From Alsobacter soli (lineage in GTDB: Bacteria > Pseudomonadota > Alphaproteobacteria > Rhizobiales > Beijerinckiaceae), in the NCBI RefSeq assembly GCF_003004785.1, contig NZ_PVZS01000035.1:1-51241 (forward strand): a stretch of DNA of 51,241 bases, given 5' to 3'. The notes below the pieces were generated by a model. The model was given only the letters and a program-made list of their open reading frames with translations. It ran no database searches and was not told the origin of the DNA. Position numbers and translations under genes: made by a program. Positions 31,773-51,241 of this stretch are shown here, one piece after another (the first letter of the stretch is position 1; every line of letters begins with the position of its first letter).

Positions 31773-31799
31773 GGGTCGATCCTGTTCAGCGCAGCGGGT

Positions 31800-32573
31800 T
31801 CAGAGAGACGACACGAGGTGTCCGCCATCGACGGCCAGGGCCGAGCCGGTCATCCAGCCCGAGGCGTCGGAGGCGAGCAGCAGCACCGCGGCGTCCAGGT
31901 CCTCCGGGCGGCCCAGGCGGCGCATGGGAATGCGATCGATCATGCGCTTGCCGGCGTCCGTGGCGAAGTACTCGGCGTTGATGTCCGTGCCGATGTAGCC
32001 CGGGCAGAGCGCGTTCACCCGGATGCCGAAGCGCGCCCACTCCAGGGCGAGCGACTTGGTCATCTGGATCAGGCCCGCCTTGGAGATCGAATAGGGCGCC
32101 ACGCCTGTCCCGGGCCGCAGGCCAAGGATGGAGGCGACATTCACGATGGCGCCCGGCCGCTTCGCCGCGCGCCAGGCCCTGGCCGCCTCCACGGACAGGA
32201 GCCATGCGCCCCTGAGATTGGTGTCGAGGATGCGGTCGAACTCGGCCGCGCCGACGTCCATGGCGAGCCGGGTGTCGGCCACCCCGGCGTTGTTGACGAG
32301 CACGTCGAGGGGAGGGGCCCCCGCCGCCTCCAACTCTGGGAAGACTCGGGCCACGGACCCTTCGTCCGCCACGTCGAGAGCGATGGCGCGGGCCTGCGCG
32401 GCGCCGGCGGCCCGGAGTTCGTCGACCAGCCTGTCCAGGCGCTCCTTGCGCCTCGCCGCGACCGTGACCACGGCCCCGTGGCGGGCGAAGAGCCGGGCGA
32501 AGTGCTCGCCCAGCCCGCCCGATGCGCCGGTGACGAGGAGGTGGCGACCGGCGATGAGGGCTCCGAGATCCAT
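31800..32573 (-). CDS. Short-chain dehydrogenase/reductase, possibly LvaD-like
   Basis: The 257-residue protein is a classical SDR with TGASGGLG (15-22) for NAD(P) binding, NNAG (94-97), catalytic Ser148, and YSISK (Tyr161, Lys165). The C-terminus SGWMTGSALAVDGGHLV is typical of FabG-like enzymes. It sits between the APH-type kinase and the acyl-CoA dehydrogenase genes, as an SDR does in lva operons. A role in oxidising a hydroxyacyl-CoA is plausible, but the family motif alone does not show the substrate. Confidence 0.9.
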   Translation of the reverse strand: MDLGALIAGRHLLVTGASGGLGEHFARLFARHGAVVTVAARRKERLDRLVDELRAAGAAQARAIALDVADEGSVARVFPELEAAGAPPLDVLVNNAGVADTRLAMDVGAAEFDRILDTNLRGAWLLSVEAARAWRAAKRPGAIVNVASILGLRPGTGVAPYSISKAGLIQMTKSLALEWARFGIRVNALCPGYIGTDINAEYFATDAGKRMIDRIPMRRLGRPEDLDAAVLLLASDASGWMTGSALAVDGGHLVSSL

Positions 32574-32606
32574 GGCGAGATTCCCTTGAGGCGGGTGGCG
32601 AGGCGT

Positions 32607-33656
32607 TCAGGCGCCCTGCGCCACGGCGAGGGCGCGGCGGGCGAAGTTGACGGCGAGGCGCCCGGTCGCGGCTGCGTCGGCGTCCGCCGCCGTTCCCGCC
32701 CGGGCGCGGTCGGCGATGCCTACGAAGATGACCGCGAAACGGAACAGCGCAAAGGCCAAGTGGAACGGCTGCAGCCGGCCGGACGGGTGCGGCCTGCCCT
32801 CGTAGCGCGCCACGAAGTCCTCCATGGTCGGGATGCCGAGCGCCGGAAGGTCGAGGCCGCGGATTCCGGCGTATTCCTCCGGCCCGATCAGCCAGGTCAT
32901 GCAGCAGAACCCGAGGTCCGCGAGCGGATCGCCGACGGTGGCGAGCTCCCAGTCGAGGATGCCGATCACCCGGGGTTCCGTCGGGTGGAAGATCAGGTTG
33001 CCGATGCGGTAGTCGCCGTGCGCGACCGAGAGCGCGCCGTCGTCCGGCGGCAGCCGCTCCTCGAGCCAGGCGATCACCGCGTCGAGCTCGGGAATGTCTC
33101 GCGTCGGGGATTCGGCCCATTGCCTGCCCCAGCGCCTGAGCTGGCGCGCGAAGTAGTTGCCGGCGCGGCCGAAGTCAGCGAGGCCGACGCTGGCCGGATC
33201 GACGGCGTGCAGCGCCGCCAGGGCGTCCGCCGCCGAGAGGTACATCGCACGCCGCTCGTCTGGCGACACACCCGGCAGGGCGCTGTCGTGGAACACGCGG
33301 CCGTCGAGCCGCTCCATGAGGTAGAACGGCGTGCCCACAACGTCGTCCTCGGCGTGGAACAGCACCGGGCGCGGGGTCGGCGCCGGGGTGTCGGCGAGCG
33401 CCTGCAGCACACGGAACTCGCGGTCCACCGCGTGGGCCGAGGCCAGCGTGGCCCCGTTCGGCCGCTTCCGCAGCACGAGGTCGCGCCCGGTCGCCGAGAC
33501 GAAATAGGTCGGGTTCGACTGGCCGCCCCCGACGCGGGCGATGTCGATCTCGCCCGAGACGCCGAGCTGGCGGCTCAGGAAGGCGGCGAGTCTCGCCGGA
33601 TCGAAATCGACCGGCCCTTCCACGCGGCCGACACGAACGGCGCCTGGGCCGCTCAT
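32607..33656 (-). CDS. APH-family phosphotransferase, LvaA/ACAD10-type acyl-CoA kinase
   Basis: The 349-residue protein is an aminoglycoside-phosphotransferase-fold kinase. RVGGGQSNPTYFV (41-53) and DLVLRKRPNG (59-68) form the nucleotide-binding lobe. HGDYRIGNLIFHP (213-225) has the catalytic Asp215 and Asn220, and ILDWELATVGDPLADLGF (233-250) carries the second metal-binding Asp235. This is the text of the kinase domain fused to ACAD in animal ACAD10/11 and of LvaA, which phosphorylates the 4-hydroxyl of 4-hydroxyacyl-CoA, rather than of antibiotic-resistance kinases. Its ATG overlaps the CoA ligase stop as ATGA. Operon position between a CoA ligase and an acyl-CoA dehydrogenase supports the acyl-CoA role. 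Confidence 0.87.
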   Translation of the reverse strand: MSGPGAVRVGRVEGPVDFDPARLAAFLSRQLGVSGEIDIARVGGGQSNPTYFVSATGRDLVLRKRPNGATLASAHAVDREFRVLQALADTPAPTPRPVLFHAEDDVVGTPFYLMERLDGRVFHDSALPGVSPDERRAMYLSAADALAALHAVDPASVGLADFGRAGNYFARQLRRWGRQWAESPTRDIPELDAVIAWLEERLPPDDGALSVAHGDYRIGNLIFHPTEPRVIGILDWELATVGDPLADLGFCCMTWLIGPEEYAGIRGLDLPALGIPTMEDFVARYEGRPHPSGRLQPFHLAFALFRFAVIFVGIADRARAGTAADADAAATGRLAVNFARRALAVAQGA

Positions 33657-35305
33657 GACGGGGAGCCGCCAGCCGCGCGCTGACGCAGAATGTCCTTGCG
33701 GACCTTCCCGGTCGGCGTCTTCGGCAATTCCTCGACAACCTCCAGGCGGATCGGGATCTTCTGCTTGGCCAGATGCCGCTCGACGAGGAAGCGGGCCGCC
33801 TCCGCCTGGTCGATGCGACCCTCGGGCCGGCACGTCACGTAGGCGCAGACGGCCTCGCCCAGGCGTTCGTCCGGCATGCCCACCACGGCGGCTTCCTGCA
33901 CGGCCGGATGCTCCAGAAGCTTGTCCTCGATTTCGCGCGGGCTGAGGTTCTCGCCCCCGCGGATGATCAGGTCCTTGGAGCGACCGGTCGTGACGATGTA
34001 GCCGGGCGGGTCGATCTTGCCGAGATCGCCGGTGCGGAAGAAGTCGCGCCCGTCGAAAGCCGCCTCGTCGTCGCGCGGGTCGAGGTAGCCCACGAAGGTC
34101 TGTGGGCCCCGCAGCAGGATTTCGCCTTCCTGGCCGGGCGCGACGTCCTGCCCGGTTCGCGGGTCGACGATCCGGACATCGGCGTTGAAGATCTCGCCGT
34201 CCGTCTCGGCCGCGAGGCGGGCGTCGCCGTTGCGCGCCCCGAAAGCGATGGGCCCGGAAACCTCGGTGGCGCCGTAGATCCGGCACACGACGCACGGCGC
34301 GAGCGCCCGCTGGGCCCGGTAGGCGACCTCCGGCGGGACAGGAGCCCCGCCGCATGGAAACAGCCGCAGGCTCGGGAGCGGGCGTCCGCTGCGCTCCACC
34401 GAGGCGGCGAGCTCATTCAGAAAGGGCGTCGCCCCAAAGGCGATGGTGCAGCCGTGCGTCCGGATGAGTTCCGCCGCCGTGTCCGGCTGCCAGACGTCCA
34501 TCAGCACGGCGGGCGTCGACAGCACGAAGGGCTGCTCCAGCGCGTAGAGGTAGCCCGTGATGTGGCTGACCGGCGAGGCCATGAACACGCAGTCTTGCGG
34601 CGTCACGCTCCAGAAATCGCCGAAGGTGCGCATGGCGGCCATGATGGTCGCGTGCGTGTGCAGGACGCCCTTGGCGCGCCCGGTGGTGCCGCTTGTATAC
34701 AGGATCAGCTTGATTGCATTCGCGTCGGAGGCGAAGCTCTCGGGCGGCATCGGCGGCCCGGCGACCGCCGTCTCGAAGGCGTCGAACTCGCCGGCTTCGC
34801 CTCGCACGACGACGACCCGCAGCAGGTCGGGGAGGGTTGGCCGCAGGCGCCGCACCATGTCGAGATAATCGTAGCTGCGGAAGCGCTGCGGCGTGAACAG
34901 CGCCTTGCTGCGGCAGTCGGCGAGCATGTAGCCCACCTCCGCGTCGCGGTAGATGGGCACCAGCGGGTTCACGACCAGGCCCGCCATGGCGGCCGCCAGG
35001 TTGAGCACCGCGGCCTCGTACCAGTTGGGCAACTGGTAGGACACCACGTCGCCCGGCCGCAGGCCGGCCTTCTCCAGCCAGGCGGCGAGGCGGGCCGCCT
35101 CGTCCACGAGCCGGCCGAAAGTGACCCGCCGGTCCCCGTCGATCAGCGCCACCCGGTCCGGCCCTTCGGCGCAGCGCCGGAGGGCGAGGCGCGCGATGGT
35201 GTCGCCGGACCAGGCGTCCGAGGCGCGGTATTCGGCCCGGCGCGACTCCAGGCGGCGGCGCCAGGCCGGCGGCGGGGAGGCGTCGGGAGCGAGCGACGTC
35301 GTCAT
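33653..35305 (-). CDS. Acyl-CoA ligase, cyclohexanecarboxylate-CoA-ligase-like
   Basis: The 550-residue ANL-superfamily ligase shows the P-loop LYTSGTTGRAKGVLHTH, adenylate site RIYGATEVSG, the hinge GRSKDLIIRGGENLSPREIE and the C-terminal catalytic PTGKVRKDIL. Its text resembles AliA-type and short/medium-chain acyl-CoA synthetases. It is the first gene of the leftward operon and would activate the free acid for the kinase, SDR and dehydrogenase. It is paralogous to the ligase at 41154-42815 with near-identical motif order. Its promoter, with an operator-like palindrome in the spacer, lies at 35379-35406. Confidence 0.92.
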   Translation of the reverse strand: MTTSLAPDASPPPAWRRRLESRRAEYRASDAWSGDTIARLALRRCAEGPDRVALIDGDRRVTFGRLVDEAARLAAWLEKAGLRPGDVVSYQLPNWYEAAVLNLAAAMAGLVVNPLVPIYRDAEVGYMLADCRSKALFTPQRFRSYDYLDMVRRLRPTLPDLLRVVVVRGEAGEFDAFETAVAGPPMPPESFASDANAIKLILYTSGTTGRAKGVLHTHATIMAAMRTFGDFWSVTPQDCVFMASPVSHITGYLYALEQPFVLSTPAVLMDVWQPDTAAELIRTHGCTIAFGATPFLNELAASVERSGRPLPSLRLFPCGGAPVPPEVAYRAQRALAPCVVCRIYGATEVSGPIAFGARNGDARLAAETDGEIFNADVRIVDPRTGQDVAPGQEGEILLRGPQTFVGYLDPRDDEAAFDGRDFFRTGDLGKIDPPGYIVTTGRSKDLIIRGGENLSPREIEDKLLEHPAVQEAAVVGMPDERLGEAVCAYVTCRPEGRIDQAEAARFLVERHLAKQKIPIRLEVVEELPKTPTGKVRKDILRQRAAGGSPS

Positions 35306-35378: not shown

Positions 35379-35406
35379 AATCTATCGAATTCAAATTCGA
35401 AATCAA
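35379..35406 (-). promoter_or_regulatory. Leftward promoter with operator palindrome in spacer
   Basis: On the minus strand TTGATT (35406-35401) and TAGATT (35384-35379) are separated by 16 bases. The spacer holds the perfect palindrome CGAATT-CA-AATTCG (35386-35399). A repressor bound there would block RNA polymerase. The 15-mer GAATTCAAATTCGAA at 35387-35401 occurs identically at 43590-43604. Confidence 0.62.
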
Positions 35407-35411
35407 CTTTC

Positions 35412-35440
35412 TTGACCGCGCGGCCGGCCGGCTGTACCGA
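35412..35440 (+). promoter_or_regulatory. Rightward promoter candidate for thioesterase/TetR
   Basis: TTGACC at 35412-35417 and TACCGA at 35435-35440 are 17 bases apart. The pair lies next to the leftward operator, so one bound regulator could control both directions. The -10 element is weak. Confidence 0.4.
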
Positions 35441-35499
35441 AGAAAAAGGGGACCGGCGACCAGCTGGGAGCGGGTGCCCATGGCCGCTGCGGAACCAGC

Positions 35500-36009
35500 A
35501 TGACCCTCGCGCCCACGCTCCTCGAAAGCCTGCCGATTTCGCGCGCCATCGTCGCTCCGGAATGGATCGACGGCAACGACCATATGAACGCCTGCTACTA
35601 CCTGGCCATCATCAAGGAGCCGGCGATCGAGGCCCATAACGCGTGGGACTACGGCGTGGACTTCAGGGTGCGCACCGGAGAATCCAATTTCGTTCTGGAA
35701 TCGCACGTGCGCCACTTCCGGGAGCTCAAGCTCGGCGATCCTTTGCTGGTGTCGACGCGCATTGTCGATCTCGACGACAAGCGCCTGCATCTGGCGTTCG
35801 AGATCCACAACGAGCGCGAAGCCTATCTTGCGGCTGTCGCGGAATATGTGACGATCCATGTGCGCATGGCGCCGCCCGCCGCCAGGCCCTTCCCGGCGGA
35901 GCTCCGGGATCGCCTGGAGCGGATCAAGGCGGCGCACGAGCGCGTTCCCATGGCGTCCGAGGCGCGCGGACGCCTCAGGCTGAGCATCCACACGCGGCCG
36001 GGCCAGTAG
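35500..36009 (+). CDS. Hotdog-fold acyl-CoA thioesterase-like protein
   Basis: The 169-residue protein is a hotdog-fold thioesterase of the 4-hydroxybenzoyl-CoA-thioesterase-like group. EWIDGNDHMNACYYLAII near residue 22 is the N-terminal active-site helix with the D-H-N pattern. SNFVLESHVRHFRELKLGD and LDDKRLHLAFEIHNE form the central strands. It may release free acids or rescue CoA from dead-end thioesters of the neighbouring pathway. It is divergent from the CoA-ligase operon and lies 55 bp before the tetR gene, likely on the same transcript. Confidence 0.85.
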   Translation: MTLAPTLLESLPISRAIVAPEWIDGNDHMNACYYLAIIKEPAIEAHNAWDYGVDFRVRTGESNFVLESHVRHFRELKLGDPLLVSTRIVDLDDKRLHLAFEIHNEREAYLAAVAEYVTIHVRMAPPAARPFPAELRDRLERIKAAHERVPMASEARGRLRLSIHTRPGQ

Positions 36010-36064
36010 TCATGTCCAGCACCGACGAGCCCCGCCGCTCCCCCATCGCAACGGAATTCCGCCC

Positions 36065-36733
36065 ATGAGCATCGACAGCGCCTCGGCGCGGGAGGCGAGG
36101 CCGCGCGCGGCCAAGCCCAAGAAGCCGCCGATCAAGAAATCGGAAGCGACGCGGGCCCGCATCCTGGACGCCGCCGCCTATGTGTTCCGTCGCAAGGGCT
36201 ACGCCCACGCGCGCCTGAGCGACATCGCCAAGAAGGCCCGTACCCAGACGAGCAGCATCTACTACTACTTCGAATCACGGGAGGCGATCGTCTCCGAGGT
36301 GCTGCGCATCGCGAACGAGAAGACGGCGAGCTACGTCAACGCCGCCATCTCGGAGCAACCCGTGGGAGCGACGGCGCGGGAGCGCATCACGGCGGCCATC
36401 CACGGTCATTTCCGGATCGTGCTGTCGGACAACGACTACACCTCCGCCCACATGCGCATCTTCGACCAGATTCCCGAGAAATTGCAGGAGCACTTCCTCA
36501 AGGTGCTCGACCAGAACGCCGGCATCTGGCGCGACCTGTTCGACGCCGCCCGCGCCGAGGGCGCCATCGCGCCCGACGTGGACCTTTCCGTGCTGCGCCT
36601 GCTGCTGCTGGGCATGATGAACTGGTCCATCGAGTGGTTCAAACCGGGCCGCATGTCCGTGGATCAGATCGCCGACCAGGCGGCCCGCCTGTTCTTCGAC
36701 GGGGCCGGTCCGCCTCGCGCGCCCGCGCCCTGA
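36065..36733 (+). CDS. TetR/AcrR-family transcriptional regulator
   Basis: The 222-residue protein has a basic N-terminal tail and a TetR helix-turn-helix: RARILDAAAYVFRRKGYAHA followed by RLSDIAKKARTQTSSIYYYF (about 51-70). The remaining 140 residues are the helical ligand-binding and dimer domain. The family usually represses nearby genes and is released by a small ligand, often an acyl-CoA in catabolic clusters of this type. The shared GAATTC-type palindromes at 35386, 36850 and 43590 are its probable sites, because it is the only regulator gene in the island. The ATG overlaps the TGA of a possible 18-codon upstream frame (36012-36068). Confidence 0.92.
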   Translation: MSIDSASAREARPRAAKPKKPPIKKSEATRARILDAAAYVFRRKGYAHARLSDIAKKARTQTSSIYYYFESREAIVSEVLRIANEKTASYVNAAISEQPVGATARERITAAIHGHFRIVLSDNDYTSAHMRIFDQIPEKLQEHFLKVLDQNAGIWRDLFDAARAEGAIAPDVDLSVLRLLLLGMMNWSIEWFKPGRMSVDQIADQAARLFFDGAGPPRAPAP

Positions 36734-36832
36734 CAGCCGGCTCGCGCCGGCTCGCCTGACCAGGGACCCTTCCCAGACTCGTGCTGCTCGGCGCGCCGGG
36801 CCGCAAGCCTCTCCACGCGCAGGGTCACGTCA

Positions 36833-36869
36833 TTTTCAAAGTCGAATACGAATTCAAAAATGGTTGACG
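36833..36869 (+). promoter_or_regulatory. Promoter/operator region of the rightward transport operon
   Basis: An AT-rich imperfect palindrome of about 28 bp ends in GAATTCAAAAA (36850-36860). It contains CGAATACGAATTC and is followed at 36864 by TTGACG, a good -35; the -10 is weak. GAATTCAAA is shared with the operators at 35387 and 43590, and in both rightward cases TTGACG follows within 6-14 bases. It lies 124 bp before the first Liv-type binding protein gene. Confidence 0.5.
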
Positions 36870-36992
36870 GTCCTGCCGGGCTGTGATCCCTTTTCGGCAT
36901 CGTCGCACCGGCGCCACGAGCGCCGCGGCGCCCGGCCCGCCCCGGATGATGAGGGCGCCGGGCGCACGCCATGCGGCGCCGGGGAGGACATC

Positions 36993-38249
36993 ATGACCAT
37001 CAGCCGCAGAGGCATTCTCAAGACGGTCGCGGCCGGCGCCGGCTTCGCCGCCACGGGCGGGCTCGGCCGGGCCTGGGCGCAGGGAACGGGGCCAATCCGG
37101 ATCGGCTACCTGCTGCCGCTCACGGGATCGCAGGCGACCTACGCGCCGGATTGCCAGCTCTCCGCCCAGATCGCCGTGGACCAGATCAACCAGGCGGGCG
37201 GCGTGCTGGGCCGCACGCTCGAGCTGGTCGTGCGCGACGACAAGGCCAACGCGAACGCCGCCATCTCGGCCGCCCGCGAGCTGATCGGCGACGGCGTGAA
37301 CCTGTTCGTCGGCGGCCTGAACACCGTGTCCGGCCTCGCCGTGTCCGGCATCATGCCCGAGGCGAACGGCGTCTTCATGAGCTGCGGCGCCATCGCCGAT
37401 ACGCTGACGCACGAGGCGTTCAACAGGAACTACTTCCGCATCACGGACAGCAGCTATGTGCGCTGCCACGCCCAGGCGCGGCTTGCGGCCGAGCGCTATC
37501 CGGACGTGACCCGCTGGGGCGCGATGATCCCCGACGCGGAATTCGGCCACGCGGTCTGGAAGGCCTTCTCCCACGGGCTGCGGCAGGACTACCCGCAGAT
37601 CGCCAAGAAGCAGCCGGAGATCTCCGATCCCATCCTGTTCAAGTACGGCGCGATCGACTTCAAGAACCAGGTGGCGAGCCTGATGCAACTGCCCGTGGAG
37701 GCCGTCTACCAGAGCCTCACGGGCGAAGACTTCCTCACCCTGCTGACGCAGGCGCGGCCGCTCGGCCTGACGCGCAAGATCAAGCTGTTCATGGACCTCA
37801 GCGGCGAGCTGATCTACGCTAAGACGCTGAAGAAGAACCTGCCCGAGACCTTCTGGTCGGCGAGCCACTGGTACTACGGATCCTACCTCGACAATCCGAT
37901 CGGCAAGGCGCTCTACGACGAGTACGTGGCGCGCACCAAGGACACGCACCCGACGGGCTACATGGGCCCGCCCCACATGTGCCTCTACGCCTACGCCAAC
38001 GCCATCAAGGCTGCGGGATCGACCGAGACCGCGGCCGTGATCGGCGCGCTCGAAGGCATGAGCTTCGAGAGCTGCAAGGGCCGCATCACCTTCCGCAAGG
38101 AGGACCACCAGGCGATCGGGGACGTGAACCTGATCAAGCTGGGACCGAAGGCCGAGGAGCCGGGCTGGGCCGTGTCCGACCAGGTGAAGCTCAACAGCGC
38201 CGCCATTGCGGAACCTCCGTCGCCCGGCCAGCCGATCCGCTACGCGTAA
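36993..38249 (+). CDS. Liv-type ABC substrate-binding protein, copy 1
   Basis: The 418-residue protein is a branched-chain-amino-acid-type periplasmic binding protein. It begins with a Tat-like signal, TISRRGILKTVAAGAGFA, cleaved after AWAQ. The mature part has PIRIGYLLPLTGSQATY and QINQAGGVLGRTLELVVRDD, as in LivJ-like proteins that often bind organic acids or aromatic compounds rather than amino acids. GGGGAGGA lies upstream of the ATG. It is paralogous to the protein at 39875-41140, sharing FRKEDHQAI near the C-terminus. It would deliver substrate to the LivHMGF transporter at 47671-51017. Confidence 0.9.
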   Translation: MTISRRGILKTVAAGAGFAATGGLGRAWAQGTGPIRIGYLLPLTGSQATYAPDCQLSAQIAVDQINQAGGVLGRTLELVVRDDKANANAAISAARELIGDGVNLFVGGLNTVSGLAVSGIMPEANGVFMSCGAIADTLTHEAFNRNYFRITDSSYVRCHAQARLAAERYPDVTRWGAMIPDAEFGHAVWKAFSHGLRQDYPQIAKKQPEISDPILFKYGAIDFKNQVASLMQLPVEAVYQSLTGEDFLTLLTQARPLGLTRKIKLFMDLSGELIYAKTLKKNLPETFWSASHWYYGSYLDNPIGKALYDEYVARTKDTHPTGYMGPPHMCLYAYANAIKAAGSTETAAVIGALEGMSFESCKGRITFRKEDHQAIGDVNLIKLGPKAEEPGWAVSDQVKLNSAAIAEPPSPGQPIRYA

Positions 38250-38285
38250 GGCGGGTCGCGGCGTCGCGCGAAGGAGGAGAGATCG

Positions 38286-39035
38286 ATGGCGTTCCGAGGA
38301 CTGGACGGCAAGGGCGCGATCGTGACCGGCGGCGCCGGCGCGATCGGGGTGGAGATCTGCAGGACGCTGGCCGCCAACGGCGCCCGCGTCCTGGCGGTCG
38401 ACCTCGACCGCGAGGGACTGGCGCGGCTCGAGCGCGAGATCCCGGGCGTGGTGGGCCTCATCGCGGACGTGTCCAGCATCGAGGGGGCGGACGCCGCCGT
38501 GTCGCGCGCCGTCGAGGCGTTCGGCGGCCTCGACCTGCTGGTCAACGCCGTGGGCATCCTCGGCCGGTCGGGCCCCATCGCCGAGATGGATCCGGACGAG
38601 TTCGACCGCGTCCACCGCGTCAACGTCCGCGGCGTGTTCCTGCCGCTGCGGGCGGGCCTGCGCCAGATGATCCGGCAGGGCCGGGGCGGGGCCGTCGTCA
38701 ACTTCGCCTCCGTGGCTGCGCTCCGGGCGCGGGCGGACCGGGCGCTCTACGGCAGCTCCAAGCGGGCCGTGGTGGCGCTGAGCTCCTCGGCGGCGCTGGA
38801 GAACGGCCGCCATGGCATCAGGGTGAACGCCGTGTGCCCCGGGGCGATCGACTCCCCCATGCTGCAGCAGCTGGCCGTCGGCGCCGGGCTCGGCCCGTGG
38901 GCCGGCGGCGGCCGCGCCATCGACCGCAACGGCCGGCCGGAGGAGGTCGCGAACTTCGTGGCCTTCCTGCTCAGCGACGAGGCCAGCTACTGCACCGGCG
39001 GCGTCTACACCGTCGACGGCGGCCTGATCACCTGA
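38286..39035 (+). CDS. Short-chain dehydrogenase/reductase
   Basis: The 249-residue SDR has TGGAGAIG (14-21), NAVG (87-90), catalytic Ser142 and YGSSK (Tyr155, Lys159), ending in a typical GVYTVDGGL. GGAGAG precedes the ATG. The Asp at the end of the second strand (VDLD) suggests NAD preference. It lies 36 bp after the binding-protein gene and 29 bp before another SDR, so it belongs to one operon. The exact step, probably oxidation of a hydroxyl on the transported compound or its CoA ester, is inferred from the gene set. Confidence 0.9.
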   Translation: MAFRGLDGKGAIVTGGAGAIGVEICRTLAANGARVLAVDLDREGLARLEREIPGVVGLIADVSSIEGADAAVSRAVEAFGGLDLLVNAVGILGRSGPIAEMDPDEFDRVHRVNVRGVFLPLRAGLRQMIRQGRGGAVVNFASVAALRARADRALYGSSKRAVVALSSSAALENGRHGIRVNAVCPGAIDSPMLQQLAVGAGLGPWAGGGRAIDRNGRPEEVANFVAFLLSDEASYCTGGVYTVDGGLIT

Positions 39036-39064
39036 CCCCTTCCGCTCCCTCCACGGAGAACGAC

Positions 39065-39817
39065 GTGACCTACGATCTCAACGGCAAGTTCGCCGTCGTC
39101 ACCGGCGCGGCCAACGGCATCGGCCAGGCCTGCGCCATCACGCTCGCCCGTCACGGCGCGGACGTGGCCATCATCGATATCGAGAAGAACGCGCTGGAGG
39201 AGACGGCCCAGGCCATCGCCGAGCTCGGCCGCCGCCCGCTGCCGCTCGTCGTGGACTGCACCGACCGCTTCAAGGTCGCGGAGGCGTTCGGGACCATCGA
39301 GAAGGAGTTCGGCCAGGTCGACATCCTGCTCAACAACGTCGGCCAGAGCGCCCGCGAGCGGGCGTCGGAGTTCTACTGCTCCGAGTTCGAGACCTGGGAC
39401 TTCGTGATCCGGCTGAACCTCTACACGGCCCTGACCTGCTCGCGCCTCGTCGTCCCCGCCATGCGCGAGCGCCGCTCGGGCAAGATCATCAGCATCTCGT
39501 CCGAGGCCGCGTACATGGGCTCGATCGGGGTGGCGGACTACGCGGCCGCGAAGGCGGGCGTGATCGGGATGACGCGCGCGCTCGCGCGCGAGCTCGCGCC
39601 CTTCCAGGTGAACGTGAACGCGGTGTGCCCGGGCCCGATCCGCACCCGCGCGGCCGACCGCCTGCCCATCTGGAAGGAATACCTCAAGGAAACGCCGCTC
39701 GGCTTCGCCGGCGAGCCCAAGGACATCGCCAACGCCGTGGCGTTCTTCGCGGCGGAGGAGAGCCGCTTCATCACCGGCCAGTCGCTGATCGTGAACGGCG
39801 GGCGGTGGTGGAGCTGA
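39065..39817 (+). CDS. Short-chain dehydrogenase/reductase
   Basis: The 250-residue SDR begins with GTG at 39065 after a GGAGA ribosome site. It has TGAANGIG (13-20), an acidic IIDIE after strand 2 that favours NAD, NNVG (90-93), Ser145/146, and YAAAK (Tyr159, Lys163). CYSEF-type residues around 105 and a WKEYLKETPLGF loop near 200 form the substrate lid. A much longer open frame covers this gene from 37979, but upstream it is only a shadow of two other genes. Close relatives are found in aromatic and alicyclic acid pathways. Confidence 0.9.
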   Translation: MTYDLNGKFAVVTGAANGIGQACAITLARHGADVAIIDIEKNALEETAQAIAELGRRPLPLVVDCTDRFKVAEAFGTIEKEFGQVDILLNNVGQSARERASEFYCSEFETWDFVIRLNLYTALTCSRLVVPAMRERRSGKIISISSEAAYMGSIGVADYAAAKAGVIGMTRALARELAPFQVNVNAVCPGPIRTRAADRLPIWKEYLKETPLGFAGEPKDIANAVAFFAAEESRFITGQSLIVNGGRWWS

Positions 39818-39874
39818 CGGACCGACATTCGTCGCAGCAAGCGCCCGGAAGCGGCGCGGGGGAGGGAGGACACC

Positions 39875-41140
39875 ATGACCACAGGATTGACCAGGCGTTC
39901 GGTGCTGGCCGGCGGATCGGCCCTCGGCGCGCTCGCGGCGGCGGGCGCGGGCCCGGCTTTCGCGCAAGGCGGCGCGCCCATCCGCCTCGGCTACGTGGCG
40001 CCGCTCAGCGGCGCCCAGGAGGTGCTCGGCGCGCCCATGCTGCTGGGCGCCAAGATCGCCGTCGCGCAGATCAACAAGGCGGGCGGCGTCAATGGCCGCA
40101 TGCTCGAGATCGTGGCGCGCGACGACAAGGCGAGCGGCGCCGAGGCCGTGACCCAGGCGCGCGACCTCTTCGGCCAGGACGTGAAGCTCCTGTTCGGAGC
40201 CATCCAGACCGCGTCCGCCATGGGCATGATGCCGCTGCTGGGCGAGGCCAACGCCACGCTGATCTCCTGCGCGGCGATCTCGGACGGGCTCACGCACGAG
40301 AGCTACGTGCCGAACTACTTCCGCATCAGCGACAACTCCTACATGCGCTACCGCGCCCTGGCGCGCGTGATGGCCGAGCGGTACCCGAACGTCACCACCT
40401 GGGCCGGCGTGTTCCCTGACGCGGCCTACGGCTTCTCCGCCTGGGACGCCTTCAAGGACGGGCTCAAGACCTACTACCCGTCCCTGGCCAAGAAGGACGT
40501 GAAGATCCTCGAGCCGGTGCTGACGAAGTTCGGCGCGACCGACTTCAAGCAGCAGCTCACGACGCTCATGCAGACGCCGGCGGAAGGGCTGTACAACAAC
40601 ACCAACGGCGCGGACGCCGTGACCCTGCTGGCGCAGGGCGCGAGCTTCGGGCTGAGCCGCAAGTTCAAGGCGGTGGCCGACGGCGCCAACGAGTTCAACG
40701 TTCCCAAGGCGCTGGGCAAGCGCATGATCCCGAACTTCTGGACGGCCATGCACTGGTACTTCGGCGGCTACGCCGACCAGCCCATGGGCAAGCAGCTCTA
40801 CGATGACTACGTGGCGGCGACCGGGGACAAGTTCCCGCTGGGCTACGTCGAGCAGGGCCACGCGGCCGTCTACGCCTACGCCAACGCCATCCGCAAGGCG
40901 GGCAGCACGGACGCGAAGGCCGTGGTCGCGGCCATGGAAGGCATGTCCTTCGATACGGCCAAGGGAAAGCGGACCTTCCGCAAGGAGGACCACCAGGCGA
41001 TCCTCGACATCAACTTCATCGAGATCAACCCCAAGGACAACGAGCTCGGGTGGGAGGTGTCCAACTTCGTCCGGGTGCCAGGGGCCGACGTCATCGAGCC
41101 GCCGACGCCGGGCCAGGCGGTGAAGTTCCAGAACCTCTGA
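39875..41140 (+). CDS. Liv-type ABC substrate-binding protein, copy 2
   Basis: The 421-residue protein has a Tat-like signal (LTRRSVLAGGSALGALAAAG) cleaved after AFAQ, then PIRLGYVAPLSGAQEVLGAP and QINKAGGVNGRMLEIVARDD. It is clearly paralogous to copy 1: both carry KF/YGA.DFK in the middle and FRKEDHQAI before the end. Two binding proteins beside one permease set suggest that the transporter accepts two related ligands, or that one copy is redundant. GGAGGGAGG precedes the ATG. Confidence 0.9.
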   Translation: MTTGLTRRSVLAGGSALGALAAAGAGPAFAQGGAPIRLGYVAPLSGAQEVLGAPMLLGAKIAVAQINKAGGVNGRMLEIVARDDKASGAEAVTQARDLFGQDVKLLFGAIQTASAMGMMPLLGEANATLISCAAISDGLTHESYVPNYFRISDNSYMRYRALARVMAERYPNVTTWAGVFPDAAYGFSAWDAFKDGLKTYYPSLAKKDVKILEPVLTKFGATDFKQQLTTLMQTPAEGLYNNTNGADAVTLLAQGASFGLSRKFKAVADGANEFNVPKALGKRMIPNFWTAMHWYFGGYADQPMGKQLYDDYVAATGDKFPLGYVEQGHAAVYAYANAIRKAGSTDAKAVVAAMEGMSFDTAKGKRTFRKEDHQAILDINFIEINPKDNELGWEVSNFVRVPGADVIEPPTPGQAVKFQNL

Positions 41141-41153
41141 GGAGTTGGCGGCC

Positions 41154-42815
41154 GTGAACATGCGACGCGACATCAGCGGGTGGTCCATCCGCTGGGACGA
41201 CGACCAGGCGGAGCGCCTCCGCGGCGAGGGCTGGTGGACCGGCAAGACGATCGCGGACTACGCCCGCGAGCGCGTCGCCGCGACGCCCGACAAGGTCCTC
41301 GTGGTCGAGCGCGAGCGCGCGTTCACGGTCGGGCAGCTCTGGGACGAGGCCAACACGCTGGCCCGCGCGCTGGTGGCGCGCGGGCTGCGTCCGGGGGACA
41401 CGATCACCTTCCAGCTGCCCAACTGGGCGGAGGCGGTCGTGATCAACCTGGCGGCGGCGCTCGCCGGCCTGGTGGTCCATCCGATCATCCCGATCTACCG
41501 GGACGCCGAGACCGCCTTCATGCTGCGCGACTGCCGCAGCAAGCTGATCTTCCTCCCGCGGGAGTTCAGGGGCTTCGACTATGTCGAGATGATCGACCGG
41601 GTCTCCGACAAGCTCGAGGCGCCGGTCGAGGTGGTCGTGGTGCGTGGCGACCCGGGCCGCCACCGCTCTTACGCCGACCTCCTGGCGTCGGCCCCGGCCG
41701 ACGCGGGGGAGCTGCCCGGCGCCGACCCGGACGCGGTCAAGCTCATCATGTACACCTCGGGCACCACCGGCCGGGCGAAGGGCGTGCTGCACACCCACAA
41801 CTCCCTTCAGGCGGAGAACGTGGCGCGCATCAGGCATCTGGGGCTCGGGCCGGACGACGTGATGTTCAACCCGACGCCGGTGACCCACGTCACGGGCTAC
41901 CTGTATTCCCTCGTCCTGCCCTGGATGGCGGGTCTGCAGACCGTGATGCTGGACGTCTGGGAGGCCGAGCTCGGCCTCGGCATGATGCGACGGCGCGGCT
42001 GTACCGGCACGGTGGCGGCGACCATCTTCCTGCAGCAACTCGTCGCGGCGGCGAAGAGCCAGGGGGAGAGCCTTCCGGCTCTCCGCTTCTTCCTTTGCGG
42101 CGGCGCGCAGGTGCCCCCGGACCTGATCCGCGAAGCCGCCGCCACATTCCCGAACTGCGCTCCGGCGCGCATCTACGGCTCCACCGAGGTGCCGTGCATC
42201 ACTGCCGGCGTCAACGCGCGGGCCATGCTGGAGCAAGGCGCAGAGACCGACGGCGAGCTCTGCTTCGGGGAGGCGCGCATCGTCGATGCGGCGACCGGCG
42301 CGCCCGTAGCCCCGGGAGGGGAGGGCGAGATCATCGCGCGCGCCCCCCAGATGTTCGTGGGCTACGCCCGGGACGAAGACAACGCCGGCGCCTTCGACCC
42401 TGACGGGTTCTTCCACATGGGCGACCTCGGGCGTTTCGTCGAGGGCCGCTTCATCGTGGTCACCGGGCGGAAGAAGGACATCATCATCCGCGCCGGGGAG
42501 AACATCAGCCCCAAGGAGGTCGAGGACATTCTGCTCGGCCATCCCGACATCGACGACATCGCCATCGTGGCCATGCCGGACGAGCGCACGGGCGAGGCGG
42601 CCTGCGCCTTCGTGATCCCCAAGCCCGGCCGACGCGTCGAGCTTCCCGAGATCCGCCGCTACCTCGTCGGCGCGGGCCTGGCCATGCAGAAGATCCCCGA
42701 GCGCGTGGAGCTCGTGACCGAGTTCCCCCGCACGGCCGTCGGCAAGGTTCGCAAGGACATCCTGCGCGACCGGGCCAAGGGCCTGCGCCGCGCCCCAACC
42801 CAGACCCAGGCCTGA
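41154..42815 (+). CDS. Acyl-CoA ligase, paralogue of the leftward-operon ligase
   Basis: The ANL-superfamily ligase (about 553 residues) has MYTSGTTGRAKGVLHTH, RIYGSTEVPC, GRKKDIIIRAGENISPKEVE and RTAVGKVRKDIL in the same order as the ligase at 33653-35305. The start is uncertain: TTG 41145, GTG 41154 and ATG 41160 are in frame; GTG is chosen because GGAG ends 9 bases upstream. It lies directly after the second binding-protein gene and before an SDR. It likely activates the imported acid or a later intermediate to the CoA ester. Confidence 0.9.
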   Translation: MNMRRDISGWSIRWDDDQAERLRGEGWWTGKTIADYARERVAATPDKVLVVERERAFTVGQLWDEANTLARALVARGLRPGDTITFQLPNWAEAVVINLAAALAGLVVHPIIPIYRDAETAFMLRDCRSKLIFLPREFRGFDYVEMIDRVSDKLEAPVEVVVVRGDPGRHRSYADLLASAPADAGELPGADPDAVKLIMYTSGTTGRAKGVLHTHNSLQAENVARIRHLGLGPDDVMFNPTPVTHVTGYLYSLVLPWMAGLQTVMLDVWEAELGLGMMRRRGCTGTVAATIFLQQLVAAAKSQGESLPALRFFLCGGAQVPPDLIREAAATFPNCAPARIYGSTEVPCITAGVNARAMLEQGAETDGELCFGEARIVDAATGAPVAPGGEGEIIARAPQMFVGYARDEDNAGAFDPDGFFHMGDLGRFVEGRFIVVTGRKKDIIIRAGENISPKEVEDILLGHPDIDDIAIVAMPDERTGEAACAFVIPKPGRRVELPEIRRYLVGAGLAMQKIPERVELVTEFPRTAVGKVRKDILRDRAKGLRRAPTQTQA

Positions 42816-42819
42816 TCCC

Positions 42820-43575
42820 ATGCCCATGTCCCCTTCGTCCAACGGCCGCCTCGCCGGCCGCCGCATCATCGTCACCGGCGCGGCCTCGGGCATCGGCCGG
42901 GAGACCGCCGAACTGTTCGCCAGGGAAGGCGCGGCCCTCGCGTTGTTCGACGTGGGGGAAGGCGCCCGGGAGCTTGCAGGGCGCATCGGCGCACACGCGT
43001 TTTCGGTCGACGTCTCGGACGAGCAGGCGGTCGAGTCCGCCGTGTCGCAGGCCGCCGAGCGGATGGGCGGCTTGGATGGTCTCGTCAACGCGGCGGGTAT
43101 CTTCCCGGTGCGCAAGCTGGAGGAGACCAGCCTGGAGCTCTGGCGCAAGACGCTGGACGTGAACCTGACGGGTCCCTTCCTGGTCTCACGCGCCGCTGCT
43201 CGGCATCTAAGGGCCGCGGGCGCGGCCACGATCGTCAATGTCGGATCAGGCTCGGCCCTGCTGCCCTATCCGGAGCTGTCGGCCTACGGCGCCTCCAAGG
43301 GCGGCCTCGCCATGCTGAGCAAAGTGCTCGCCGCGGAGCTCGCGCCGCAGGTGCGCGTCAACGTGGTGTGCCCGGGCATGACGCGCACCGGCATGGTGAC
43401 GTCCTGGTTCCCGGACCCGGAGGCGCTCGCGGAGCGCGCCAAGTCCGTCTACGCGCTCGGCCGCATCGGCGAGCCGATCGAGGTGGCGCAGGCCATCCTT
43501 TTCCTGACGAGCGCGGAATCCAGCTTCGTGACGGGTGTGACCCTGGCCGTGGACGGCGGGCGCACCTACCACTGA
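42820..43575 (+). CDS. Short-chain dehydrogenase/reductase
   Basis: The 251-residue SDR has TGAASGIG (19-26), NAAG (90-93), catalytic Ser143 and YGASK (Tyr156, Lys160), with a C-terminal TGVTLAVDGG. Asp near the end of strand 2 (LFDVG) suggests NAD. It starts 5 bp after the CoA ligase stop and is the last gene before the second operator region. It is the fourth SDR in the island; together they could handle several hydroxyl/keto steps. Confidence 0.9.
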   Translation: MPMSPSSNGRLAGRRIIVTGAASGIGRETAELFAREGAALALFDVGEGARELAGRIGAHAFSVDVSDEQAVESAVSQAAERMGGLDGLVNAAGIFPVRKLEETSLELWRKTLDVNLTGPFLVSRAAARHLRAAGAATIVNVGSGSALLPYPELSAYGASKGGLAMLSKVLAAELAPQVRVNVVCPGMTRTGMVTSWFPDPEALAERAKSVYALGRIGEPIEVAQAILFLTSAESSFVTGVTLAVDGGRTYH

Positions 43576-43589
43576 CGTAAATAGAAACA

Positions 43590-43638
43590 GAATTCAAATT
43601 CGAAAAACGTTGACGCGCTGCGGCGGGGCCCATAGGCT
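43590..43638 (+). promoter_or_regulatory. Promoter with upstream GAATTC operator for the ACAD-Liv segment
   Basis: The 15-mer GAATTCAAATTCGAA (43590-43604) is identical to that at 35387-35401. It is followed by TTGACG (43610-43615), a 17-base spacer and TAGGCT (43633-43638), which make a plausible promoter for the acyl-CoA dehydrogenase genes. The palindromic core is GAATT-CA-AATTC (43590-43601). Confidence 0.62.
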
Positions 43639-43706: not shown

Positions 43707-44900
43707 ATGGACCTGAAGCTCACGGCCGAGGACGAGGCCTTCCGGCGCGAGGTTCGCGACTTCGTGCGGTCGGCCGTGCCGGCCGACATGGCCCGGCGCA
43801 CCCGGCGCGGCGGCCACACCCCGAAGGCCGATCTGCAGGCGTGGAATCGGATCCTGTACGACAAGGGCTGGGTCGCGCCGCACTGGCCGCGGGAGTACGG
43901 CGGGACCGGCTGGTCGGCCCTGCGCATCCACATCTTCGAGGAGGAGTGCGCGGCCGCCGACGCCCCGTTCCTCAGCTATTTCGGCCTGCGGCTGATCGGG
44001 CCGCTGCTCTACACCTTCGGTTCGCCGCGCCAGAAGGAACTGCACCTTGGGCCCATCCTGCGCGGCGACGTGTTCTGGTGCCAGGGCTTCTCCGAGCCGG
44101 GCTCCGGGTCCGATCTCGCGTCCGTGCGCACCACCGCGGCGCGCGACGGGGACGACTACGTGATCAACGGACAGAAGATCTGGACCACGGAGGCGCACTA
44201 CGCCGACAAGATGTTCTGCCTTGCCCGCACCAACCCCGACGTGCCGCCCCAGAAGGGCGGTCTCTCGATCCTGATGTTCGACATGAACCAGCCCGGCGTC
44301 ACGGTTCGGCCCATCGTGACCATCGACGAAGGGCACTCGGTGAACGAGGTGTTCCTCGACAACGTCCGCGTGCCGGCGGTGGATCTCCTCGGCGAGGCGG
44401 GGCAGGGCTGGACCTACGCCAAGTTCCTCCTCGGCAACGAGCGGGTTTCCAACGCCCAGGTGCCGCGCTCCAGGCGCGACCTGCAGCTCCTGCGCGCCCG
44501 CGCCGAGGCGCCGGACGCGAGCGGCGCTCGTCTGGTCGACAATCCCGACATCCGCCAGCGCCTGGCCCAGCTCGAGATCGACCTCGCGGCCCTCGAATGG
44601 TCCGTGCTGCGCGTCCTGGCGAGTCCCGAGGGGGAGCGCACGCAGGCTTCGGCGTCCGGACTCAAGATCACCGGCAGCGAGATCCAGCAGCGCATCAGCG
44701 AACTCGCCTATGACCTGCTGGGGCCGCTGGGCGTCCCCTTCTATGGCGAGGACGACGTGGCCGGCGACTTGCCGGGTTTCGCCTCGCCCGACGTCCCCGG
44801 CGTCGCCGCCCGGCAGCTCTTCCTGCGGGCCGCGTCCATCTACGCCGGATCCAACGAGATCCAGCGCACCATCATCGCCAAGCAAGTGTTCAGCCTCTGA
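43707..44900 (+). CDS. Acyl-CoA dehydrogenase, large (PimC-like) subunit type
   Basis: The 397-residue protein is an acyl-CoA dehydrogenase with WPREYGGTGWSALRIHIFEE, CQGFSEPGSGSDLASVRTTA and GQKIWTTEAHYADKMFCLA. The ending ASIYAGSNEIQRTIIAKQVF is the conserved flavin/C-terminal signature. The text is that of the large subunit of pimeloyl-CoA-type dehydrogenases, which pair with a shorter, diverged subunit encoded next to it, as here. It is first after the 43590-43638 promoter. Confidence 0.92.
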   Translation: MDLKLTAEDEAFRREVRDFVRSAVPADMARRTRRGGHTPKADLQAWNRILYDKGWVAPHWPREYGGTGWSALRIHIFEEECAAADAPFLSYFGLRLIGPLLYTFGSPRQKELHLGPILRGDVFWCQGFSEPGSGSDLASVRTTAARDGDDYVINGQKIWTTEAHYADKMFCLARTNPDVPPQKGGLSILMFDMNQPGVTVRPIVTIDEGHSVNEVFLDNVRVPAVDLLGEAGQGWTYAKFLLGNERVSNAQVPRSRRDLQLLRARAEAPDASGARLVDNPDIRQRLAQLEIDLAALEWSVLRVLASPEGERTQASASGLKITGSEIQQRISELAYDLLGPLGVPFYGEDDVAGDLPGFASPDVPGVAARQLFLRAASIYAGSNEIQRTIIAKQVFSL

Positions 44901-44910
44901 GGTCGCCGTC

Positions 44911-46062
44911 TTGGATTTCTCCCTGACTGAAGAGCAGGCCCTGCTGCGCGACAGCGCGCGGCGCTTCGTGGCCGAGGCCGCCCCCGTCGAGCAGCGTCTG
45001 GCCGCCGCCCGGCAGGGGGATGGCTTCTCGCGGGACCATTGGTCCGCCTTCGCCGAGCTCGGCTGGCTCGGCGCGGCGCTGCCCGAGGAAGCAGGCGGGT
45101 TCGGCGGCGGCATGCTCGAAGCCGCCATCATTCTCGAAGAGCTCGGCCGCGGCCTTGTCGGCGCGCCCCTGCTGAGCACCGCCGTGGTGTGCGCCGGGCT
45201 GCTCGCCCGTTGCGAAGGCTACGCGGAACGCCTCGCGACCCTGGAGCTGGTGGTCGCCGGCGAGAGCCTGCTGGCGCTCGCCACGGAAGAGCCGGGGAGC
45301 CGGTACGACCTGGCCCACGTGGAGACCGCCGCTCGCGAAACGGCAGAAGGCTATCGCCTGTCCGGCCGCAAGATCGTCGTGCTGGACGGCGCTTCGGCGG
45401 ACGCCTTCATGGTTTCCGCCCGCCTGTTCGGCGAAGCCCGCGACCGGCGGGGCATTGGCGTGTTCATGGTCCCGTTTGGAACACCCGGGCTGACCGTCCG
45501 TCCCTACCGGACGCTCGACGGCCGAGGCGCGGCGGATCTCGTCCTGGCTGATGTGGAGATCCCCTCCGGGGCGATGGTCGCCGGCCCCGACGAGGGCTGG
45601 GATCGCCTCGCCGAAGCCGCCGACCGCGCCGCCATGGGCGCCGCCGCTGACTGTCTGGGCGCCATGGAGGCCGCCATCGAGATGACGGCGGACTACCTCA
45701 AGACGCGCCGCCAGTTCGGAAGGCCCATCGGCGAGTTCCAGACGCTCGCCCATCGGCTCGCCGACATGTTCGTGGCGGCGGAGAACGCCCGCTCCATGCT
45801 CTACCGCGGCCTGAGCTTCCTGGACGCGCCTCCTGCGGAGCGCGCCCGGGCCGTGTCCGCCAGCAAGGTGGCGATCACGCAGGCCGCCGCCTTCGTGGGG
45901 CAGCAGGCGATCCAGCTTCATGGCGGAATCGGCATGAGCGAGGAGCACCCCGTGGGCCACTTTTACAAGCGCCTGCAGGTCGCGGGGAAATCCTACGGCG
46001 ACCTCACCTTCCACATGGCGCGCTACGTCGATGGCGACGCCGCGCGCGAGCAGGGGGCCTGA
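44911..46062 (+). CDS. Acyl-CoA dehydrogenase, small (PimD-like) subunit type
   Basis: The 383-residue protein begins with TTG at 44911 (LDFSLTEEQALLRDSARRF). It has GWLGAALPEEAGGFGGG, a weakly conserved middle with ALATEEPGSRYDL in place of the usual TEP.GSD loop, and QAIQLHGGIGMSEEHPVGHF near the end. Reduced flavin-loop conservation is typical of the small subunit in PimC/PimD-type heteromers. It starts 10 bp after the large-subunit gene. An AGGT lies upstream of the TTG; a longer frame from 44710 runs through the previous gene in another phase and was rejected. Confidence 0.9.
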   Translation: MDFSLTEEQALLRDSARRFVAEAAPVEQRLAAARQGDGFSRDHWSAFAELGWLGAALPEEAGGFGGGMLEAAIILEELGRGLVGAPLLSTAVVCAGLLARCEGYAERLATLELVVAGESLLALATEEPGSRYDLAHVETAARETAEGYRLSGRKIVVLDGASADAFMVSARLFGEARDRRGIGVFMVPFGTPGLTVRPYRTLDGRGAADLVLADVEIPSGAMVAGPDEGWDRLAEAADRAAMGAAADCLGAMEAAIEMTADYLKTRRQFGRPIGEFQTLAHRLADMFVAAENARSMLYRGLSFLDAPPAERARAVSASKVAITQAAAFVGQQAIQLHGGIGMSEEHPVGHFYKRLQVAGKSYGDLTFHMARYVDGDAAREQGA

Positions 46063-46064
46063 CC

Positions 46065-46853
46065 ATGTCCGAGCATCCCGAACTGATCATCGAGCGCCGC
46101 GACCGGGTCCTGACCCTGACGCTGAACCGGCCCGACCAGATGAACGCCGTCAACGGCGCCCTGCACACCCGGCTGGCGCGGGTCTTCCGGGACATCGCCG
46201 AGGACCCGGACAGCGATGTCGTCGTGCTTACGGGCGCCGGCCCGGCCTTCTGCGCCGGAGGCGACCTGGAGTGGCTGCAATCGCTGATCGATGAGCCGCA
46301 GGCCTTCAATTATCTGGTGGAGGAGGCCAAGCAGATCGTCTTTTCGCTTCTGGAGCTGCCCAAGCCGGTGATCTGCCGCATGAACGGCGACGCCATCGGC
46401 TTCGGGGCCACGCTGGCCCTGTGCTCCGACGTGGTCGTGGCTGCCGACACGGCCCGCTGGGGCGACCCCCATGTGCGCGTCGGCCTGGTCGCCGGCGACG
46501 GCGCGGCGGTGATCCTGCCCCACGTGGTCGGGTACCTGAGGGCCAAGGAGCTTCTGCTGACCGGCGACCTCCTGGGCGCCGCCGAAGCCGAGCGGATCGG
46601 CCTCGTGAACCACGTTGTCCCGGCGGCGGAGCTCGACGCCAAGGTGGCGGCGATCGCGGGCAAGCTGGCGCGCGGCGCCACGCAGGCGATCCGCTGGACC
46701 AAGGTCGCGGTCAACCGCGGCCTGCGCAACTTCGCGGCCGAGCACATGGACGCGCTGATGGCGTACGAGGCTCTTTCCGCTCGCACGGACGACCACGCGG
46801 AGGCGGTCGCGGCCTTCCGCGAGCGCCGCAAGCCGGTCTTCAGGGGGCGCTGA
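46065..46853 (+). CDS. Crotonase (enoyl-CoA hydratase/isomerase) family protein
   Basis: The 262-residue crotonase-fold protein has LTLNRPDQMNAVNGALHTRL, GAGPAFCAGGDLEWL (the oxyanion-hole strand) and a MNGDAIGFGATLALCSDVVV segment. In enoyl-CoA hydratase the two catalytic glutamates lie in GGGCEL and QPE; here the matching positions read FGATL and DPH, so both appear to be replaced. VGLVAGDGAAVI with its Asp is characteristic of a distinct crotonase subgroup. The enzyme may therefore be an isomerase, C-C hydrolase or lyase rather than a hydratase. It starts one base after the previous stop. Confidence 0.88.
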   Translation: MSEHPELIIERRDRVLTLTLNRPDQMNAVNGALHTRLARVFRDIAEDPDSDVVVLTGAGPAFCAGGDLEWLQSLIDEPQAFNYLVEEAKQIVFSLLELPKPVICRMNGDAIGFGATLALCSDVVVAADTARWGDPHVRVGLVAGDGAAVILPHVVGYLRAKELLLTGDLLGAAEAERIGLVNHVVPAAELDAKVAAIAGKLARGATQAIRWTKVAVNRGLRNFAAEHMDALMAYEALSARTDDHAEAVAAFRERRKPVFRGR

Positions 46854-46854
46854 C

Positions 46855-47661: not shown

Positions 47662-47670
47662 GGAGGGGGA

Positions 47671-49553: not shown

Positions 49554-50318
49554 TGAGCACGCTCCTGTCCATCGCCGACATCCGCAAGAGTTACGGCGCG
49601 CTCGAAGTGCTCAAGGGCGTCACCCTCGATGTCGCGGAGGGAGAGACCTTCGCGATCATCGGCCCCAACGGGGCCGGCAAGACGACCCTGTTCCGGGTGA
49701 TGACCGGGGAAGCGCCCTGCAACGCCGGGACGGTCCGCTACGCCGGCCGGGACGTCACGCGGGCACCCGCCTTCGAGCGCGTGCGGCTCGGCATGGGCCG
49801 CACCTTCCAGGTCGCGCGCATCTTCCCGGACTTCACCGTCGAGGAGAACGTGATCGTGGCCGTCGAGGCCCGGCGAAGCTCTCGCGGCGACGCTGCCGCC
49901 CCACGCTGGTTCCAGACCCGGCCGCGCGCCGACGTCCGGGCCGAGGCCATGGAGCAGCTCGAGCGCGTGGGCCTCGCCGATAAAGCGGCCTCGGACGCGC
50001 GCTTCCTGTCGCACGGAGACAAGAAGCGGCTCGAGTTCGCCATCGCCCTGGCGGGCCGGCCGAAGATCCTGATGCTCGACGAGCCCACCGCGGGCATGTC
50101 GCCCGCCGACCGCATGGCGACGGCCGAACTGATCCGCCGCCTGCGGGGGGAAAGCGGGCTGACGGTGGTGATGACCGAGCACGACATGGACGTGATCTTC
50201 GGCCTGGCCAACCGCATCTTCGTGATGAACCACGGCGAGCCGATCGCGTGCGGGACGCTGGACGAGATCCGCGCCAACCCGACCGTCCAGGAAGTCTATC
50301 TCGGCAAGGAGATGTACG

Positions 50319-50332: not shown

Positions 50333-51241
<909 letters not shown>

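Follow-up and report, generated by a model that had tools for sequence, protein, structure and literature searches.

The window analyzed here, a stretch of 51,241 nucleotides from Alsobacter soli (contig NZ_PVZS01000035.1 of assembly GCF_003004785.1), carries a cluster of about twenty genes for uptake and fatty-acid-type degradation with a tetR gene in their midst (Table 1). An earlier note, made from the letters of this DNA, had proposed that an AT-rich 15-mer recurring at promoters of the cluster marks a single regulon of this TetR. Our analyses revealed that the actual unit is the 16-bp palindrome TCGAATnnnnATTCGA, not the 15-mer.

Palindromic sites and their promoters

The 15-mer GAATTCAAATTCGAA occurs exactly at 35387-35401 and 43590-43604 and nowhere else in the genome of 5,189,410 bases, and GAATTCAAA at 36850 is part of an imperfect palindrome at 36842-36857 that represents a diverged third copy; all three had been placed correctly in the earlier note. 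When up to three mismatches were allowed, the 15-mer matched the window six times, always at the three operator places. Shuffled windows gave a mean of 0.32 such matches and at most 5, and six were reached in 0/100. A first-order Markov model predicts 1.8e-5 occurrences per window and 0.0018 per genome. Among 73 AT-rich 15-mers of the window, an exact repeat was found only for GAATTCAAATTCGAA and for the 15-mer shifted from it by one base, both at these two places. Five further places in the genome match with two mismatches, and the reversed control pattern gave none. Because of the shuffle controls and the Markov estimate, together with the genome count, a chance repeat can be ruled out as the origin of the sites, which bears out the claim that such a 15-mer is unlikely by chance in GC-rich DNA. 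A weak operator-like match at 36258-36273, inside tetR, falls on the codons of the recognition helix and is seen again in relatives; it seems to be a coincidence of coding.

All three sites lie at promoter positions, as had been claimed, and they do so in two geometries. At the promoter of the acyl-CoA (coenzyme A) ligase gene fadD1, the -35 and -10 elements are separated by the palindrome, which takes up the whole spacer (TTGATT-16-TAGATT), as first noticed. The other promoters have the palindrome first, then a gap, TTGAC, about 17 bp and the -10, and at both promoters with TTGACG the palindrome ends 6 bp before it, again in line with the earlier description. What that description missed was the conserved division into two geometries and the rightward thioesterase-tetR promoter beside site 1. 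Since site 1 lies upstream of this promoter too, it probably serves both fadD1 and thioesterase-tetR, making autoregulation probable. In Microvirga the spacer layout was seen before fadD1 and at locus L094.

The gap between palindrome and TTGAC was compared at 24 of 27 sites, after dropping the acd1 sites of L027 and L028, which have no TTGAC, and the fadD1 site of L026, which is of the spacer type. The gaps were 5 (n = 5), 6 (n = 13), 7 (n = 2), 8 (n = 1) and 11 bp (n = 3), so that 20 of the 24 promoters, from different genes and species, have a gap of 5 to 7 bp. This count becomes 18 of 24 if the stronger of two overlapping copies is used in two cases: the acd1 promoter of genome G558 and the thioesterase promoter of G142 were aligned by the weaker copy (gaps of 6 and 7), the stronger one giving 12 and 13. 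The 11-bp gaps belong to the promoter of thioesterase-tetR in the window, in G537 and in Prosthecomicrobium hirschii; in the window, a weaker operator copy 6 bp onward restores a gap of 5. Weaker TCGAAT-like repeats with a 6-bp period lie beside or overlap several of the operators. At the rightward promoters the palindrome block ends in a conserved A run ahead of the -35 element, and relative to the predicted start site the operators of the upstream type would lie at about -57 to -42.

Table 1. Predicted operators, promoters and genes of the cluster. SDR, short-chain dehydrogenase/reductase; ABC, ATP-binding cassette.
Feature	Coordinates	Strand	Remarks
Operator 1, TCGAATTCAAATTCGA	35385..35400	none	Predicted; between divergent promoters (fadD1 leftward, thioesterase-tetR rightward)
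Operator 2, TCGAATACGAATTCAA	36842..36857	none	Predicted
Operator 3, CAGAATTCAAATTCGA	43588..43603	none	Predicted
fadD1 leftward promoter	35379..35406	-	-35 TTGATT 35401-35406, operator 1 as 16-bp spacer, -10 TAGATT 35379-35384; alike in Microvirga
Thioesterase-tetR promoter	35412..35440	+	TTGACC, 17 bp, TACCGA; 11 bp past operator 1; same in G537 and L025
Binding-protein 1 operon promoter	36864..36892	+	TTGACG, 17 bp with conserved TGA, TCCCTT; 6 bp past operator 2
acd1 operon promoter	43610..43638	+	TTGACG, 17 bp, TAGGCT; 6 bp past operator 3
TetR-family regulator	36065..36733	+	TetR_N and TetR_C_24 profile matches; presumed binder
Thioesterase-like gene (4HBT_2)	35500..36009	+	Presumed first gene of tetR operon
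Presumed leftward operon	30570..35305	-	Ligase, kinase, SDR, dehydrogenase
Acyl-CoA ligase (fadD1)	33653-35305	-	Leftward operon
APH-type kinase	about 32607-33620	-	Leftward operon; start uncertain
SDR	31800-32573	-	Leftward operon
ACAD11-like dehydrogenase	30570-31772	-	Leftward operon
Presumed operon from operator 2	36971..43575	+	Binding protein 1, SDR1, SDR2, binding protein 2, acyl-CoA ligase, SDR3
Presumed operon from operator 3	43707..51017	+	PimC-like and PimD-like acyl-CoA dehydrogenases, enoyl-CoA hydratase, glyoxalase-like protein, two permeases, two ABC ATPases

The operon limits are presumed from strand and spacing. The dehydrogenases of the acd1 operon are nearest to PimC and PimD yet score below the curated cut-offs (391.3 vs 623.85 for PimC and 332.6 vs 652.7 for PimD). 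Among solved structures, the kinase and the dehydrogenase of the leftward operon both match ACAD11 (5.3e-63 and 3.8e-68). With an SDR gene between them on one strand (30570-33620), the two resemble a split ACAD11, or LvaA-LvaC-like, arrangement. A cytochrome P450 gene (22741-24174) lies to the left of the cluster, with no motif seen nearby.

Occurrence in the genome and in relatives

To learn the motif, 23 upstream regions were taken from the orthologous clusters of eight other genomes, with the window excluded. Every training region has a place for it (23/23), with the thioesterase and SDR1 regions of L027 sharing one. In the window, the best three places of the learned motif are the three operators, at 28.1, 24.5 and 20.5 bits, and the next separate place reaches 8.7. 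Two models of 28 positions were then scanned against the own genome: R1, which includes the window sites and is not blind to them, and R2, which was built from the sites of other genomes and is blind (150/360 and 150/416 first-look candidates scored). R2 put sites 2, 1 and 3 on top of the scored candidates, at 20.6, 19.7 and 17.3 bits, followed by C78 (12.8 bits) and C30 (11.9 bits), both off-cluster and within open reading frames (ORFs). Nine of ten off-cluster places that were read lie within a mechanically called ORF of 90 aa or more, and L052 (C45) lies in none; the ORF over C30 is AT-rich for this genome, so its status as a gene is less sure. Wide use of the motif outside the cluster was thus not seen in the own genome among the candidates scored with the 28-position models.

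Relatives of the TetR were found at 11 loci, in P. hirschii, Microvirga makkahensis, a Hoeflea metagenome-assembled genome, Croceicoccus estronivorus and others. At E<=1e-30, 12 of 149 relatives matched, G092 and G142 among them, most at 31-39% identity; at E<=1e-48, 6 of 397 matched, namely the own genome, G092, G142 and, as new ones, G537, G558 and G572, the last with the coordinates of P. hirschii. A TetR of 44% identity was found in G468 (2/385 matched, own genome included). All 195 plasmid records of TetR relatives fall below 60% identity, and the maximum among the best 30 of the 195 is 43.9%. In the close relatives (TetR of 57-83% identity by tblastn), the cluster is kept whole or in part. 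Inspection of the upstream regions of these clusters, which the earlier note had proposed, found the palindrome at syntenic promoters, before SBP1 (binding protein 1) or SDR1, before acd1, before the thioesterase gene or before fadD2. A small enoyl-CoA hydratase-like gene (L025:10805-11485 in P. hirschii) adjoins tetR in L025, L026, G092, G142, G537 and G558; in the window, no such gene was seen at that position.

With R1 at E<=0.05 and stricter filters, 15 of the 149 relatives matched, where about 7 genomes are expected by chance. A TetR reaching 60% identity is present among these relatives only in G000, G092 and G142, and each of them has three places; the 12 others have one or two. The sites of G092 and G142 are part of model R1. 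The motif, which the earlier note had said must not occur widely outside such clusters, was found at three places only in the 3 of 149 genomes with a close TetR. In seven of eight TetR-bearing genomes scanned with R1 at E<=0.3, places lie on the contig of the TetR, and they include two new targets near the TetR clusters that are again uptake and oxidation genes. One, Microvirga L094:1503-1518, lies in the spacer layout between genes for a GMC oxidoreductase and an ABC binding protein; the other, Hoeflea L095:1506-1521, is of the upstream type (gap of 6 bp) and lies between genes for a GMC oxidoreductase and a DctP binding protein. Identical TCTAATTTAATTTAGA palindromes were seen in two genera, at L029:6109-6124 and L031:6036-6051, about 4 kb from tetR and in an apparent -35/-10 spacer (TTGATA ... 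TATGAT).

Position 3 of the predicted half-site changes together with the recognition helix of the cluster TetR. A first count on hand-listed sites gave G in 49/50 half-sites and T in 15/20; since such lists favored G, the count was repeated with position 3 left free. Among sites with no mismatch, TSS and PSS helices (eight clusters) then go with G in 20/20 half-sites, and AGS helices (Croceicoccus, Vineibacter, Reyranella) go with T in 9/12; L041 and L030, also AGS, have no such site. When one mismatch is allowed, the counts are G in 59/80 vs T in 15/24, less clean because chance matches enter.

A probable TetR regulon and its alternatives

As had been noted, the TetR is the only regulator of the island: among the ORFs scanned from 30.5 to 51 kb, no second DNA-binding regulator, a second TetR included, was found. 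The protein scores 46.4 bits with TetR_N (cut-off 24) and 76.3 bits with TetR_C_24 (cut-off 26.4). Its recognition helix begins TSS at residues 62-64, and we take residues 62-63 to correspond to the base-contacting positions of TetR itself. The predicted structure is near those of the acyl-CoA regulators FadR (5gpc, 3whb, 3whc) and AibR (5k7z). As in a local TetR regulon, a protein with a TetR_N helix-turn-helix is encoded among the targets, a predicted palindromic operator is shared by several promoters, and one operator precedes the regulator's own operon. It is very likely, judging from the sequences compared, that this TetR is the dedicated local regulator of the cluster, working through three operators on four promoters, most likely as a repressor. 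A single TetR regulon, as originally proposed, is well supported: the sites are real, conserved and nearly confined to the cluster, and they covary with the recognition helix. Specific support comes from the R2 scan, from the orthologous clusters and from the finding of three places only in genomes with a close TetR. Binding, repression, ligand and operon limits are what we infer from these data.

In the mechanism that we propose, a TetR dimer would bind TCGAATnnnnATTCGA at the three operators and thereby control four promoters, those of fadD1-kinase-SDR-dehydrogenase, of thioesterase-tetR, of the genes from binding protein 1 to SDR3 and of those from acd1 to the ABC ATPases. Without substrate, TetR would most likely repress them. 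By analogy with FadR and AibR, TetR would be released once its C-terminal pocket is filled by a substrate-derived CoA thioester, which one of the two ligases would produce, and the co-regulated thioesterase could remove the inducer. Since operator 1 fills the -35/-10 spacer of fadD1, occlusion of that promoter by bound TetR is likely; at the promoters of the upstream type, repression is our default assumption.

Several observations weigh against this reading. Scored with nothing but the 16-bp core, the off-cluster place C78, within an ORF, reaches 23.9 bits and thus exceeds site 3 (20.5), with C30 at 17.7 and C45 at 13.1 bits, so that the genome-wide matrix scan suggested in the earlier note singles out the three sites with R2 but not with the bare core. 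Models of 18 or 22 bp have all three window sites in the lead and C78 below site 3, and the specificity therefore comes partly from the AT-rich flanks. In Croceicoccus, the three places found by R1 lie inside ORFs of other contigs, and the T-type sites beside tetR were not recovered. The more distant TetR relatives L030, L032 and L033 have no site within one mismatch, and such a site was found at 1 of 13 loci of TetR relatives of 31-39% identity. The covariation counts were drawn from kindred sequences and are not independent, so that their Fisher value is no clean probability. The fold match is unspecific, as other TetR proteins lie within 1-2 Z and the top Foldseek matches are PfiT and PfmR, and the protein falls far short of the NCBIfam FadR cut-off (NF053878, 62.1 vs 200 bits); with the PsrA model (NF053516) it scores 28.7 vs 300 bits.

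Finally, a second TetR gene (TetR_C_29, L025:8274-8990) adjoins the cluster of P. hirschii, which would fit a regulator encoded elsewhere binding the palindrome while the cluster TetR has other sites. We consider this improbable, because the operator base changes together with the helix of the cluster TetR, three places are found among the 149 relatives only with that TetR, and the scanned ORFs of the cluster hold no second TetR. Still less probable is a reading of the AT-rich block as an UP element or some other promoter feature instead of an operator. UP elements occupy the region upstream of -35, and the conserved A run of the rightward promoters is so placed; however, the dyad is base-specific and its conservation extends across genera, the block sits in the spacer at fadD1 in two species, and the 28-position models reported no comparably strong place elsewhere in the genome.

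The arrangement of the promoters raises another question, namely whether TetR is a dual regulator that represses fadD1 from the spacer and activates the other promoters by touching RNA polymerase. The gap of 5 to 7 bp at most promoters suits polymerase contact, and PsrA (PMC13104628, excerpt) and LuxR (PMC2628434, excerpt) are each described as both repressing and activating. Yet the spacing may be inherited along with the promoters, a dimer so near the -35 could equally block polymerase, and the gap is 11 bp in 3/24 and 8 bp in 1/24; on balance we think dual regulation unlikely. Equally doubtful is the idea that one palindrome gives opposite outcomes by position: an acyl-CoA-sensing TetR would shut fadD1 when bound in its spacer, would aid the import and beta-oxidation operons from a position 5-7 bp above their near-consensus -35, and could be joined on the TCGAAT-like repeats by a second dimer one hexamer along, altering the outcome at the tetR promoter. 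Because of the conserved spacing, whether such a TetR activates or represses can readily be tested.

Comparison with known systems

The operator TCGAATnnnnATTCGA appears to be new, as no description of it was found in the literature searched, and the kind of system that it would define, a local TetR catabolic regulon, is already known. Bacillus FadR, a TetR-family regulator that responds to acyl-CoA, has an operator different from TCGAATnnnnATTCGA, and the window TetR shares 18-21% identity with it. Identity to AibR, the TetR-family regulator responding to isovaleryl-CoA, is 21%, and the AibR gene set differs. PsrA of Pseudomonas, as presented in the excerpt of PMC13104628, recognizes a palindromic GAAACnnnnGTTTC-type site, represses psrA, activates rpoS and is released by oleic acid; family and palindromic site are shared with the window TetR, but the operator differs and the PsrA regulon is wide. 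The excerpted text of PMC5343134, which also treats the PsrA regulon, calls the FadP and LiuQ regulons unique to betaproteobacteria. EdcR was rejected as the Croceicoccus counterpart, the operator proposed for it, TnnCnnTACnAnTnGTAnnGnnA, being different (PMC8700777, excerpt), and the palindromes put forward for a TetR of Caenibius bile-salt genes (PMC12882949, excerpt) differ in sequence and were likewise rejected as the same operator.

An unnamed TetR subfamily thus gains a testable operator and a defined regulon, with the hint of a recognition code in which TSS and PSS helices go with TCG half-sites and AGS helices go with TCT. In relatives, the palindrome points to additional candidate targets, genes for binding proteins next to those for GMC oxidoreductases, which narrows the search for the substrate. 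For the leftward operon, the comparison is with LvaA/LvaC and ACAD10/ACAD11, for which a 4-hydroxyacyl-CoA route with kinase and dehydrogenase halves is described (PMC11342911, excerpt). The likeness, at the level of genes, lies in an APH-type kinase and an ACAD11-like dehydrogenase encoded close together on one strand. The difference is that here a TetR would control them jointly with an ABC importer and with dehydrogenases resembling PimC and PimD, which would place the ACAD11-type pair beside an importer under one regulator.

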